A stretch of DNA of 64,000 nucleotides, taken from the NCBI RefSeq assembly GCF_013415845.1, contig NZ_CP058907.1, positions 3,844,001 to 3,908,000 on the forward strand, given 5' to 3'. Both the position numbers and the translations under genes were made by a program. Each line of letters starts with the position of its first letter. The first letter of the stretch is position 1. This DNA is from Rhodopseudomonas palustris (GTDB lineage: Bacteria; Pseudomonadota; Alphaproteobacteria; Rhizobiales; Xanthobacteraceae). The notes below the pieces were generated by a model. That model saw only the letters and a list, made by a program, of their open reading frames with translations. It was not told the origin of the DNA and did no database searches. Below are positions 38,487 through 44,701 of the stretch, one piece after another.

Positions 38487-38612
38487 GAGTCATTCCGGGG
38501 CGCGAGCGCAAGCTCGCGAACCCGGAATCTGAAGCAAGCACGGCCTGGGGCTGCGTCGCCCACGCTAATCTCGAGATTCCGGGTTCGCCGCTGCGCGGCG
38601 CCCCGGAATGAC
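38487..38612. repeat. Palindromic element, ATTCCGGGG family (gene-less form)
   Basis: Left arm GAGTCATTCCGGGG ... CGAACCCGGAATCT (38487-38530), itself hairpin-forming, a 42-nt spacer, then the right arm GAGATTCCGGGTTCGC ... GCGCCCCGGAATGAC (38573-38612), the inverted copy. A further right-arm end (CGCGCCCCGGAATGAC) lies at 38630-38645. With it, the 346-bp gap between pepP and the Bcr/CflA gene holds no gene that I can support. Confidence 0.88.
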
Positions 38613-38800
38613 AATCGAGAGTCTCTGCGCGCGCCCCGGAATGACGCGTGGCTGATGTTCGACCGCCGCCAACCCGCCCTCGCCCGGCTTCCGCATAGCC
38701 TTATGCCGAAAAACCGCCTGTTAGCGCTGCCCCGGCAGGCTACAGTCGACCACCAGCTCACATCCTTCGCCGCGGCAGGCCCGTCGGGAACCGATCTCGC

Positions 38801-40105: not shown

Positions 40106-40145
40106 CGTCATCCTCCGCGAAAGCGGAGGATCCAGTATTCCAGAG
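40106..40145. repeat. Partial palindromic repeat, GTCATCC-CCGCGAA family
   Basis: GTCATCCTCCGCGAAAGCGG followed by AGGATCCAGTATTCCAGAG, closely matching the left half of the larger element at 60120-60216. It forms a small hairpin (CCTCCGC/GCGGAGG). Confidence 0.75.
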
Positions 40146-40175: not shown

Positions 40176-40276
40176 GAGTTATTCCGGGGCGCTCACGCAG
40201 TGAGCGAACCCGAAATCTCGATCGACAGAACACCTCGAGATTCCGGGTTCGCGCGTTCCGCGCGCCCCGGAATGAC
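40176..40276. repeat. Palindromic element, ATTCCGGGG family (gene-less, short spacer)
   Basis: Left arm GAGTTATTCCGGGGCGC ... GAACCCGAAATCT (40176-40218), an 18-nt spacer, right arm GAGATTCCGGGTTCGC ... GCGCCCCGGAATGAC (40237-40276). It ends 4 nt before the convergent ligA stop. Confidence 0.88.
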
Positions 40277-40280
40277 GGGG

Positions 40281-42481
<2,201 letters not shown>

Positions 42482-42510: not shown

Positions 42511-42554
42511 GAGTCATTCCGGGGCGCTTGTGGCACGCAAGCGAACCCGGAATC
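42511..42554. repeat. Left arm of ATTCCGGGG element, upstream of the GIY-YIG gene
   Basis: GAGTCATTCCGGGGCGC ... GCGAACCCGGAATC, matching the left arms at 38487 and 40176. It ends 20 nt before the GIY-YIG start codon. Confidence 0.88.
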
Positions 42555-42574
42555 GCGCAGCGCGCGAGGCGCCG

Positions 42575-42861
42575 GTGCCCTATTATGTCTATCTGTTCGC
42601 CAGCCGGAAAGACGGTGCGCTGTATGTTGGCGTCACCAACGACCTGGTCCGCCAAGCGTATGAGCATCGCACCAAAGCCGTGCCGGGTTTCACGTCGAAA
42701 TACAACATCGCCAAGCTGGTGTGGTTCGAAATCCACGACGACCCGATTTCCGCGATCACCCGGGAGAAGGAGATCAAAAAGGGCGGCGGGCCTGGAAGGT
42801 GGCGCTGATCGAGCGCGACAATCCCGGGTGGGACGATCTATTCGAGACGATCGCGAGCTAG
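42575..42861 (+). pseudogene. GIY-YIG endonuclease (UPF0213/YhbQ-like), frameshifted
   Basis: The frame from GTG 42575 (GAGG 5 nt upstream) encodes a small GIY-YIG domain: YYVYLFASRKDGALYVGVTN, then DLVRQAYEHRTKAVPGFTSK, YNIAKLVWFE and ITREKEIKK. After the run AAAAAGGGC near 42776-42783 that frame reads GGGPGRWR and stops at 42808. One frame over, the expected ending continues as WRRAWKVALIERDNPGWDDL and FETIAS to a stop at 42859-42861. Restoring one base after AAAAAG would give a normal ~95-residue protein. So it is a one-base deletion, a sequencing error or a slippage site. It lies between the two arms of a palindromic element. Confidence 0.88.
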
Positions 42862-42886
42862 GCTGAGGCAGCGTGCCCTGAACCTC

Positions 42887-42924
42887 GGGATTCCGGGTTC
42901 GCGCTTCGCGCGCCCCGGAATGAC
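42887..42924. repeat. Right arm of ATTCCGGGG element, downstream of the GIY-YIG gene
   Basis: GGGATTCCGGGTTCGCGCTT ... GCGCCCCGGAATGAC, the inverted partner of the arm at 42511-42554. The two arms enclose the nuclease gene. Confidence 0.88.
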
Positions 42925-42950: not shown

Positions 42951-42995
42951 GAGTCATTCCGGGGCGCGAGCATAAGCTCGCGAACCCGGAATCTC
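42951..42995. repeat. Left-arm type unit of the ATTCCGGGG family, next to recN
   Basis: GAGTCATTCCGGGGCGCGAG ... GCGAACCCGGAATCTC. It stands 20 nt from the recN stop without a following right arm, mirroring the lone unit next to ligA. Confidence 0.85.
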
Positions 42996-43015: not shown

Positions 43016-44701
43016 CTACCCCGCCGCCTTGATCAGCCGGTCGGCCGCGGCGCGGGCTTCGGCGGTGATCTCGGCACCTGCCAGCATGCGGGCGATTTCC
43101 TCGCGGCGGTGGTCTTGTTCCAGGGCGGCGACGCGGGTGGCGACGCGTTTGCCCTTGTCGAGGGCGGCCTTGGAGATCAGCAGATGCTGATCGGCACGCG
43201 CCGCGACCTGGGGAGCGTGGGTCACGGCCATCACCTGAACCTTCGAGGCCAGCCGCGCTAGCCGGGCGCCGATCGCGTCCGCGACCGCGCCGCCGACGCC
43301 GGTGTCGATCTCGTCGAACACCAAAGTCGGCGCCGAGCCCTTGTCGGACAGCACCACTTTCAGCGCCAGCAGGAAGCGCGACAGCTCGCCGCCCGACGCA
43401 ACTTTCATCAGCGGGCCGGGCCGGGTGCCGGGATTGGTCTGCACCCAGAATTCGACGCGGTCGATGCCCTGCGGGCCCGGCGCGGCCTCGTCGGCCTCGA
43501 CCTGGGTCATGAACTTGGCGCGTTCGAGCTTGAGCGGCGCCAGCTCGGCGCCGACTGCCTTGTTGAGCTTGTCGGCGGCCTTGGCGCGCGCGGCCGACAG
43601 CTTCGCCGCGGCGGCGCCGTAGCGGGCGTCGGCTTCGGCCGCGGCCTTCTCCAGCGCCACCAGCCGGTCGGCGCCGGCATCGATCAGCGCGACATCGGCG
43701 ACGTATTGCGCGGCGAGCGCGGCGAGCGAATCCACCGGGGTCGAATACTTGCGGGCGGCGGCGCGCAGCGCGAACAGCCGCTCCTCGATCCGCTCCAGTT
43801 CCAACGGATCGAAATCGGCCGCGGCCAGCGCGGCGTTGAGATGCTGGTCGGCTTCTTCCAACGCGTTGATGGCGGCGTCGATCGCGCGCACCGCGGGCTC
43901 GATCAGTTGCGGCGCGGTGCCGGCGCGGCGCTCCAGCCGGCGTACCGCGGACGCCAGCGCGGCGACCGGCGAATGATGCCCGCCGACCACCTCCTGCGCC
44001 TCGCGCAGGTCGGCGGCGATCTTCTCGCCCTGCATCATGGTGGTGCGGCGCTCGGCCAACGAGGTCTCCTCGCCGTCCTGCGGCGCGAGCTGCTTCAGTT
44101 CGTCGGCTGCATGGCGCAGATAGTCGGCCTCGCGGGCGGCGCGTTCCATGCCGGCGCGATGGGCGTCGAGCGCGGCCCGCGCGGTGCGGCGGCCCTCCCA
44201 CAGCGCCTCGAGAGAAACGACGTCCTTCTCAAGGCCTGCGAAGGCGTCGAGCAGCCGGCGATGGGTGGCGGCGTCGACCAGCGCGCGCTCGTCGTGCTGG
44301 CCGTGGATCTCGACCAGCGTCGCGCCGACCGCCTTGAGGGTCTGCACGCTGACCGACTGGTCGTTAATGAAGGCGCGGGTGCGGCCGTCGGCGAGCTGGA
44401 CGCGGCGGAGGATCAGTTCGCCAGATTCGTCGACCTCACGGTCGTCGAGACCGTTGGCCTTGAGAATCGCGAACGCCGGATGGGTCTTGGCGACATCGAA
44501 GCTGGCGGTGACCTGGCCGTGCTCGGCGCCGTGGCGGACCAGCGCTGCATCGCCGCGGCCGCCGAGCGCCAGCGCGAAGGCATCGAGCAGAATCGATTTG
44601 CCGGCGCCGGTCTCGCCGGTCAGCACCGCAAGGCCACGGGAAAACTCGATGTCGAGCCGCTCGATCAACACGATATCGCGGATCGACAGGCGGGCAAGCA
44701 T
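43016..44701 (-). CDS. recN: DNA repair protein RecN
   Basis: 561 residues, an SMC-like ATPase acting at double-strand breaks. Walker A GETGAGKS (29-36), a long coiled-coil middle (about 155-360), ABC-type signature ASGGELSRFLLALK, and Walker B LVFDEIDTGVGG are all present. It begins 12 nt after the bamD stop and could be read from that transcript. A perfect GTTC-N7-GTTC LexA motif in the 3' end of bamD, 61 nt upstream of the start codon, suggests that it also has its own SOS-controlled promoter. Confidence 0.96.
   Translation of the reverse strand: MLARLSIRDIVLIERLDIEFSRGLAVLTGETGAGKSILLDAFALALGGRGDAALVRHGAEHGQVTASFDVAKTHPAFAILKANGLDDREVDESGELILRRVQLADGRTRAFINDQSVSVQTLKAVGATLVEIHGQHDERALVDAATHRRLLDAFAGLEKDVVSLEALWEGRRTARAALDAHRAGMERAAREADYLRHAADELKQLAPQDGEETSLAERRTTMMQGEKIAADLREAQEVVGGHHSPVAALASAVRRLERRAGTAPQLIEPAVRAIDAAINALEEADQHLNAALAAADFDPLELERIEERLFALRAAARKYSTPVDSLAALAAQYVADVALIDAGADRLVALEKAAAEADARYGAAAAKLSAARAKAADKLNKAVGAELAPLKLERAKFMTQVEADEAAPGPQGIDRVEFWVQTNPGTRPGPLMKVASGGELSRFLLALKVVLSDKGSAPTLVFDEIDTGVGGAVADAIGARLARLASKVQVMAVTHAPQVAARADQHLLISKAALDKGKRVATRVAALEQDHRREEIARMLAGAEITAEARAAADRLIKAAG

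Follow-up and report, generated by a model that had tools for sequence, protein, structure and literature searches.

The subject of this analysis is a small gene of the GIY-YIG nuclease superfamily, which lies between two outward-pointing copies of a repetitive extragenic palindrome (REP) in Rhodopseudomonas palustris. The window, meaning the whole stretch of 64,000 nucleotides that was analysed, covers positions 3844001-3908000 of a single-contig genome of 5.32 Mb, labelled G000 here. The gene is situated between two open reading frames (ORFs) that we take to be ligA, encoding NAD-dependent DNA ligase, and recN, and the window also holds two inverted pairs of REP units (dimers) that contain no gene. 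The features are listed below by window position and strand, with their basis in brackets.

42513..42554, plus strand: left unit of the REP dimer around the nuclease gene, with the tag pointing outward (motif; hairpin z -4.2, folded as single-stranded DNA, 42512-42550)
42889..42924, minus strand: right unit of the REP dimer around the nuclease gene, with the tag pointing outward (motif; hairpin z -3.2, 42885-42924)
42575..42808, plus strand: GIY-YIG frame, N-terminal and catalytic part (GTG start; PF01541 match; alignment of homologues)
42721..42861, plus strand: open frame holding the displaced C-terminal tail of the same GIY-YIG gene (ORF list; end motif shared by orthologues)
42441..42481, minus strand: extra REP unit directly outside the nuclease dimer, ligA side (motif)
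42953..42993, plus strand: extra REP unit directly outside the nuclease dimer, recN side (motif)
38489..38612, no strand: gene-less REP dimer, resembling REP doublets forming hairpins (REPINs), 47-nt spacer (motif)
38634..38645, plus strand: partial REP unit adjoining the first gene-less dimer (motif)
40178..40276, no strand: gene-less REP dimer with short spacer (motif; one long hairpin, z -7.4 for 40176-40276)
40281..42428, minus strand: left neighbour, presumably ligA (ORF list)
43016..44701, minus strand: right neighbour, presumably recN (ORF list)

The initial annotation had placed a GIY-YIG gene between identical arms at 42511-42924. Both parts of this claim hold: the arms are where they were said to be, and a Pfam profile search finds PF01541 between them with an E-value of 6e-12, over residues 3-70 of the 77-aa frame. 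No domain besides PF01541 was found in that search, the HUH domain Y1_Tnp included. In an alignment of homologues Y6, Y17, G19, H31 and E64 are invariant and R26 and R27 almost invariant; these are presumably the catalytic residues. Domain and conserved residues together place the protein in the GIY-YIG nuclease superfamily. In the window the gene is frameshifted ahead of its C-terminus, so that the GIY-YIG frame ends at 42808 and the conserved tail resumes in another frame to 42861. This frameshift could be a sequencing error. All nine orthologues translated from other Rhodopseudomonas genomes are intact and share the same terminal motif, and the ratio of nonsynonymous to synonymous substitution (dN/dS) among them is 0.06-0.20, with a median of 0.11 over 36 pairs. 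Purifying selection acts on the gene in Rhodopseudomonas.

The best matches among solved structures are two UPF0213 proteins (1zg2 and 1ywl, E 1.3e-7 and 1.5e-4), with UvrC weaker at E 0.12. In domain and size the protein is like UPF0213 and the small COG2827 or 'UvrC-like' GIY-YIG proteins, of which Caulobacter crescentus has three copies, proposed as repair enzymes, one with an SOS box, and presented without any repeat association in the accessible part of that text (PMC1839093). The gene could therefore encode a repair or structure-selective enzyme similar to UvrC, Cho or Slx1, the flanking REPs being its terminators or regulatory hairpins, and the stable hairpins formed by REPs of the window would suit such a role. 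What this leaves unexplained is that the REPs on both sides come from a genome-wide repeat and point outward, that REP type shifts with nuclease lineage, and that REP number tracks the gene, as described below; we regard it as distinctly unlikely.

The inner units of the nuclease dimer read GTCATTCCGGGG... from 42513 and, inverted, ...CCCCGGAATGAC up to 42924. With up to two mismatches GAGTMATTCCGGGG has 9 matches in the window, and CCCCGGAATGAC with up to one mismatch also has 9, where shuffled sequences predict 0.75 and 0.43, respectively. The arms are not simple terminal repeats, as had been supposed, since each of them makes up a hairpin of its own, about 36-42 nt long; on folding, stable hairpins are formed by the two inner units of the nuclease dimer and by one short dimer. 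The units have the tag AGTC or CGTC, an 8-bp stem ATTCCGGG and a long loop with an inner hairpin. The CGTC superfamily of REPs is characterised by a CGTC, TGTC or CCTC tag, a stem of 8-9 bp starting with AT, a loop of 4-5 nt and an organisation in dimers, and odd loops are mentioned for the CGTC-1 REPs of Bradyrhizobium, according to the excerpted text (Di Nocera 2013, PMC3733652). The arms in the window would be REP units resembling this superfamily. The first gene-less dimer was correctly recognised in the initial annotation, with a spacer given as 42 nt; between complete units, by the definition used here, the spacer is 47 nt. The spacer of the second dimer falls outside the scripted measurement because its left unit has diverged. 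Adjoining this second dimer, at 40106-40135, is a unit of another CGTC-like palindrome, CGTCATCCTCCGCGAAAGCGGAGGATCCAG.

Across the genome, the 14-nt core GTCATTCCGGGGCG occurs in 204 exact copies (97 + 107), and the reversed control sequence in none. In 464 kb, made up of 400 kb plus the window, an exact 10-nt motif locates 32 units, which form 13 outward pairs against 2 adjacent inward pairs. Twelve of the outward pairs span 108-154 nt, and the thirteenth, which spans 410 nt, contains the nuclease gene. By eye, the short dimers of the genome fall into two tail classes, CTCG with spacers of 36-47 nt and CCATA with spacers of 74-80 nt, the latter including those at 316394, 416598 and 496394.

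A search of the whole genome at E 0.001 gives two GIY-YIG matches, each within a REP dimer, and the two dimers belong to different REP families. The second nuclease (G000:C1:4222640-4222924) is an intact protein of 95 aa, and the units on either side of its gene are of a different CGTC type; the right one reads, with its tag outward, CGTC-ATTGCCGGG-CTTGA-CCCGGCAAT, with a stem of 9 bp and a loop of 5 nt. Its tag, AT-starting stem, loop and dimer arrangement fit the CGTC superfamily.

The survey of the arrangement covered 149 genomes of the family, with a match in 109, and 398 of the phylum, with a match in 124, together with a named scan, from which the best 80 of at least 573 loci were used. 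The loci are best-scoring matches: for the family 30 loci and a further 40 stretches that were fetched, for the named scan its 80, for the phylum 30 and 40, and for Rhodopseudomonas 11. These 231 loci represent 229 distinct genes, of which 11 were dropped for short flanks, leaving 218; for the same reason 1 of the 80 named loci was dropped from the inverted-repeat score and 4 of the 80 from the count of tagged hairpins. We assume that the surveyed genes fall in COG2827. Frequencies come from strict unit detectors and the inverted-repeat score, and in the co-variation test described below the strict detector allowed a somewhat broader tag. We discarded a relaxed hairpin detector as a statistic because it fired on 200 of 307 control ORFs.

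The gene lies strictly inside an outward-tagged dimer at 101 of the 218 GIY-YIG loci and at none of 902 control ORFs; without the Rhodopseudomonas ligA|recN set the figure is 91/208. Further controls gave 0 of 200 among ORFs with at least 80 nt of intergenic sequence on each side, and 1 of 330 among ORFs from 400 kb of G000. Units are present on both sides at 146 of the 218 loci, the nearest ones being both outward in 101, inward in 10 and mixed in 35. An inverted-repeat score of at least 22 across the gene flanks is reached by 60/79 named loci, compared with 61/879 control ORFs from the same loci. Outward tagged hairpins stand on both sides at 47/76 named loci (2/820 controls), and inward ones at 6/76 (3/820 controls). 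Broken down by source, loci flanked left and right by strict outward units number 46/67 for the family, 42/74 for the named scan, 10/10 for Rhodopseudomonas, 14/30 and 5/19 for the phylum and 5/19 for the class; at the 116 loci with such units the tag-to-tag length has a median of 392 bp (quartiles 371-451). The association fades with protein distance, from 54/102 loci above 140 bits through 29/71, 6/28 and 2/6 to 0/1 in the successive lower bins, and among distant GIY-YIG genes only 1/29 is strictly inside a dimer (7/29 by inverted-repeat score).

The survey confirms that the arms around the nuclease are real and that the arrangement holds beyond the window. The initial annotation had asked whether such genes lie within arms beyond chance, and held that its idea would fail if they were found mostly away from the arms; the first is what we see, and the second did not come about. 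The control ORFs refute hitch-hiking, by which densely scattered REPs would land beside many genes and be associated with this one incidentally: REPs are indeed abundant, but with 0/902 and 0/200 control ORFs in this configuration and 1/29 distant GIY-YIG genes, the probability of this explanation is close to nil.

Other candidates were also rejected. A REP-associated tyrosine transposase (RAYT) as the mover of these REPs is disfavoured, as Y1_Tnp has a match in 13 of the 149 family genomes (GIY-YIG in 109), has none in G000 at E 1e-6, and lies inside an outward dimer at 0 of 24 loci. A phage origin was set aside because the nuclease has no match in the phage collection, and membership of a defence system because the best PADLOC match (E 0.011) carries no weight.

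REP type and nuclease lineage co-vary. For pairs from different genomes, REP similarity declines with protein similarity, the bin means falling from 0.92 to 0.55. In genomes with at least two genes, the nearest foreign homologue tends to share the REP of its own relative and not that of the paralogue, with 34 wins, 5 losses and 9 ties in 48 comparisons; 37 of 229 loci were set aside here for want of a strict unit, as were pairs of paralogues more than 0.85 similar. The genome-wide share of T-type among T- plus G-type REP units, a measure that partly sidesteps the inheritance of whole loci, has a median of 0.354 in 16 genomes with T-flanked genes versus 0.038 in 26 with G-flanked genes (p 6e-4). 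By eye, CTCG is the ending of the units around the ligA|recN nucleases (ATTCCGG-type). A second ATTCCGG-type lineage, in genomes G153 and G141, has units ending in CCATA, and in each of these genomes its protein shares 71-77% identity with the one at ligA|recN. Neither of the two nucleases found in G000 is of this second lineage, though CCATA-tailed dimers are present there.

The abundance of cognate REPs correlates with the nuclease gene. Counted with one broad REP pattern over the 149 family genomes, the median is 44 copies in the 109 genomes with the gene and 9.5 in the 40 without it (p 3e-8), and 13 of 16 mixed genera show more REPs in genomes with the gene (permutation p 0.015). Arms distributed without regard to the gene, which the initial annotation had named as grounds for abandoning its idea, are seen only in part: abundance follows the gene, yet 6 of the 40 gene-less genomes have at least 40 REPs. 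The same counts bear on the proposal that the nuclease polices palindromes, cutting extruded cruciforms or hairpins and so limiting or editing REPs instead of spreading them. The cutting of hairpins is plausible for the GIY-YIG fold on general grounds, the REPs are structured, and their loops turn over at fixed sites. Policing would nevertheless sit poorly with gene-bearing genomes that hold more REPs, not fewer, and with a gene situated within its own target, and we consider it improbable.

Of 16 Rhodopseudomonas genomes, 11 have the nuclease unit at ligA|recN and 1 is undecided. The empty sites that the initial annotation proposed to look for in related strains do exist, in 4 of the 16, and they are empty of gene and arms together. 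The distribution needs four state changes on the tree of the flanking genes, which has one long branch and five weak forks. G028 and G089, which lack the unit and are not sisters, share another repeat-rich intergenic sequence at this site, CCTCTCCCCGC...GCGGGGAGAGG. Seven other Rhodopseudomonas nuclease matches were fetched, four of which lie beside ATTCCGG-type units elsewhere (two in G153, one each in G141 and G151, both units facing the gene in G151) and three beside other REP types. The nuclease unit is thus not strictly single-copy within Rhodopseudomonas. In Azospirillum lipoferum AZO_p3 a dimer-gene-dimer unit interrupts the sufB-sufC operon; in five other Azospirillum species the suf site is without the unit, four having 55-129 bp there and the fifth a similarly short interval. 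At the two orthologous sites compared, ligA|recN and suf, no gene-free dimer was found, gene and arms being absent together. The gene-less dimers also keep their positions: the one at 38489 is in place in five of seven relatives (G151, G125, G108, G028 and G154), and the one at 40178 in six of seven, with a single unit in the seventh. The loops and spacers of these orthologous dimers (38489-38612 and 40178-40276) have been swapped between genomes, as if by conversion.

These positions bear on the claim of the initial annotation that the nuclease-bearing version is a complete autonomous transposon (arms plus gene), and the short palindromes its internally deleted derivatives, comparable to miniature inverted-repeat transposable elements (MITEs). 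Identical arms do bound both the gene and the short spacers, and some bases next to the hairpins, 4-10 nt, are common to short dimers and nuclease units (CTCG, or in the other class about 10 nt, CCATAACCCC/AGGGGnTATGG); diverged nuclease units are present at other sites in G153 and G141. These shared tails and other-site copies, including the one in G151, speak for the claim. The interiors do not follow it: 11 spacers compared with the gene region behave like shuffled sequences (for the best spacer, a fraction of 0.06 of the shuffles did equally well). The complete transposon is mostly unsupported, since the majority of the genus has the unit at one fixed place, ligA|recN, and in G000 the two nucleases lie in different REP families and the CCATA-tailed dimers have no matching nuclease. 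We consider a transposon with MITE derivatives very improbable.

A further possibility is that REP dimers were invaded by the GIY-YIG gene as a homing endonuclease gene, which copies only itself, the REPs being moved in some other way. Homing endonucleases with a GIY-YIG domain are well known (for example I-BmoI), the catalytic domain is alike, and here too the gene lies within its likely target. TIGR01453, the model for group I intron endonucleases, gives a weak match, E 0.031, far below its cut-off. The four presence changes at ligA|recN, the diverged genes beside ATTCCGG-type units at other sites in some Rhodopseudomonas, and the many REPs that persist in some gene-less genomes would all be compatible with it. 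Yet a gene that invaded existing dimers should leave gene-free dimers at orthologous sites, and at the two sites compared gene and REPs are absent jointly; REP abundance, moreover, tracks the gene. It is worth adding that no intron or intein was noticed here, and that the target would be a dispersed family of palindromes. We judge this explanation unlikely.

The plasmid collection has 36 matching records, of which eight were opened and their flanks examined by eye. In all eight, the gene adjoins palindromic repeats whose tags resemble GTCAT, GTCAC or GTCGC. It lies inside a dimer in four (Rhizobium, Novosphingobium, Sinorhizobium and Sphingobium), whereas dimers or clusters stand to either side of it in Azospirillum, Neisseria gonorrhoeae and Planktothrix; in Spirosoma one flank has a dimer and the other a different palindrome. 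The Neisseria units beside the nuclease (GTCATTCCCGC...) look to us like dRS3, which the accessible text of PMC3733652 equates with Neisseria CGTC-1. On the Planktothrix plasmid p1 such a GIY-YIG gene lies between a gene for an MmeI-type restriction enzyme and DISARM drmA. In a second small GIY-YIG subfamily, whose C-terminus resembles KGWSRAKKEALI, the palindromes beside the gene belong to a different family, TCATCCTGAG...TCGAAGGA with its variants. An inverted-repeat score of at least 22 is reached by 21 of its 27 loci, and by 19 of 25 without the genome that prompted the idea; 3 of the 30 loci sampled had been dropped for short contigs, and the control comprised 8 ORFs, one of which reached the score.

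We propose that the GIY-YIG gene and its dimer form a REP-nuclease unit, a fixed master of the gene-less dimers that spreads REPs in trans, and we give this reading a probability of roughly 60%. To the position, orientation, spacing, co-variation, abundance and constraint described above it adds a mechanism in which the enzyme would recognise REPs of its own family by their hairpin or tag and would nick or cut the DNA there, after which host repair may copy a REP dimer into the cut or replace the site with such a copy. The outcome would be that REPs are spread and homogenised in trans, by homing-like copying and not by cut-and-paste. GIY-YIG enzymes hydrolyse DNA, and we know of no strand transfer by them, which in itself counts against the spreading of REPs by such an enzyme; for this reason, and because loops and spacers have been exchanged at fixed sites, homing-like copying is preferred. 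The GIY-YIG enzyme would then be for CGTC-type REPs the functional counterpart of what the RAYT, an HUH tyrosine enzyme, is for GTAG REPs.

Several other observations weigh against this proposal. In the survey, 117 of the 218 loci lie outside the strict configuration, 10 of them with inward units, though many of those inspected still show units. The paralogue comparisons are not independent of one another, and vertical inheritance of whole loci explains part of the co-variation; the count of G-type REPs alone does not differ significantly (p 0.11). Besides the gene-less genomes rich in REPs, 7 of the 109 gene-bearing genomes have 5 or fewer copies of the counted pattern. In G000 the cognate nuclease is broken, yet the 204 exact core copies are present. 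With no more than one mismatch in the core, 283, 170, 151 and 72 copies are counted in the Rhodopseudomonas genomes where ligA|recN is empty, against 77-387 in the 11 filled ones, so that the empty genomes have fewer overall but are not cleanly separated; G155, where the unit is interrupted by a contig end, has 251 copies of the window-type core. Mobility was compared between G000 and G151, which are 92-93% identical over about 437 kb of chained sequence. No clean insertion of a dimer was found there: of 16 gaps of at least 30 nt, 5 touch REPs, and these are mostly replacements or partial units, while 5 larger indels between blocks contain no tagged hairpin. The REP sites at 38489 and 40178 are old. 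From the kept positions and the lack of a clean recent insertion, the unit and its dimers are old and slow at the scale examined.

The case for RAYTs rests on inverted flanking REPs, co-evolution and abundance, as set out in the accessible portion of Nunvar 2010 (PMC2817692). The system described here is like REP/RAYT, REPtrons and REPINs, so far as the excerpted accounts go (PMC2817692; PMC3116915), in that enzyme and REP co-vary, abundance tracks the enzyme and there is a population of gene-less dimers. The initial annotation had imagined a RAYT/REP-like partnership using a different enzyme family, and the architecture looks so. It differs in that the enzyme is a GIY-YIG protein and not an HUH tyrosine transposase, and the REPs are of the CGTC type and not GTAG. 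In addition, RAYTs are reported, in the excerpts available, to evolve rapidly and to be 'always' flanked by REPs, whereas the GIY-YIG gene is constrained in Rhodopseudomonas and such genes are strictly inside dimers at fewer than half of the loci, as given above.

CGTC REPs are reported from Rhodopseudomonas palustris, Bradyrhizobium and Neisseria, and mostly from alphaproteobacteria, and the superfamily is apparently without a dedicated transposase, according to the same excerpts (Di Nocera 2013, PMC3733652). The units found here are like these CGTC REPs, Neisseria dRS3 included, in tag, stem and dimer organisation. Among the literature matches listed, judged by titles and the beginnings of abstracts and with subscription papers and preprints outside the scope, none joins GIY-YIG with REP, RAYT, dRS3 or CGTC repeats, and the term 'GIY' is absent from the texts of PMC3733652, PMC12306157, PMC5082802 and PMC10969869.

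The association thus joins two puzzles, the CGTC REPs that lack a transposase and the widespread small UvrC-like nucleases for which we found no demonstrated role, and it suggests that a large class of repeats so far regarded as partnerless may have an enzyme partner that went unrecognised. More tentatively, and with somewhat less than an even chance of being right, there may be a second, HUH-independent class of REP systems, in which at least two subfamilies of small GIY-YIG proteins are the dedicated, cognate disseminators of REPs across Pseudomonadota, and probably Cyanobacteriota and Bacteroidota, by 'palindrome homing'. The two examples outside Pseudomonadota were judged by eye, and in them the gene is not strictly within a dimer. 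If so, palindrome-directed cutting followed by host repair would account for the CGTC REPs, for dRS3 of Neisseria and for the TCATCCTGAG...TCGAAGGA repeats. Partnerships between REPs and enzymes would then have arisen with unrelated nucleases, and a GIY-YIG enzyme would drive the dispersal of non-coding palindromes.
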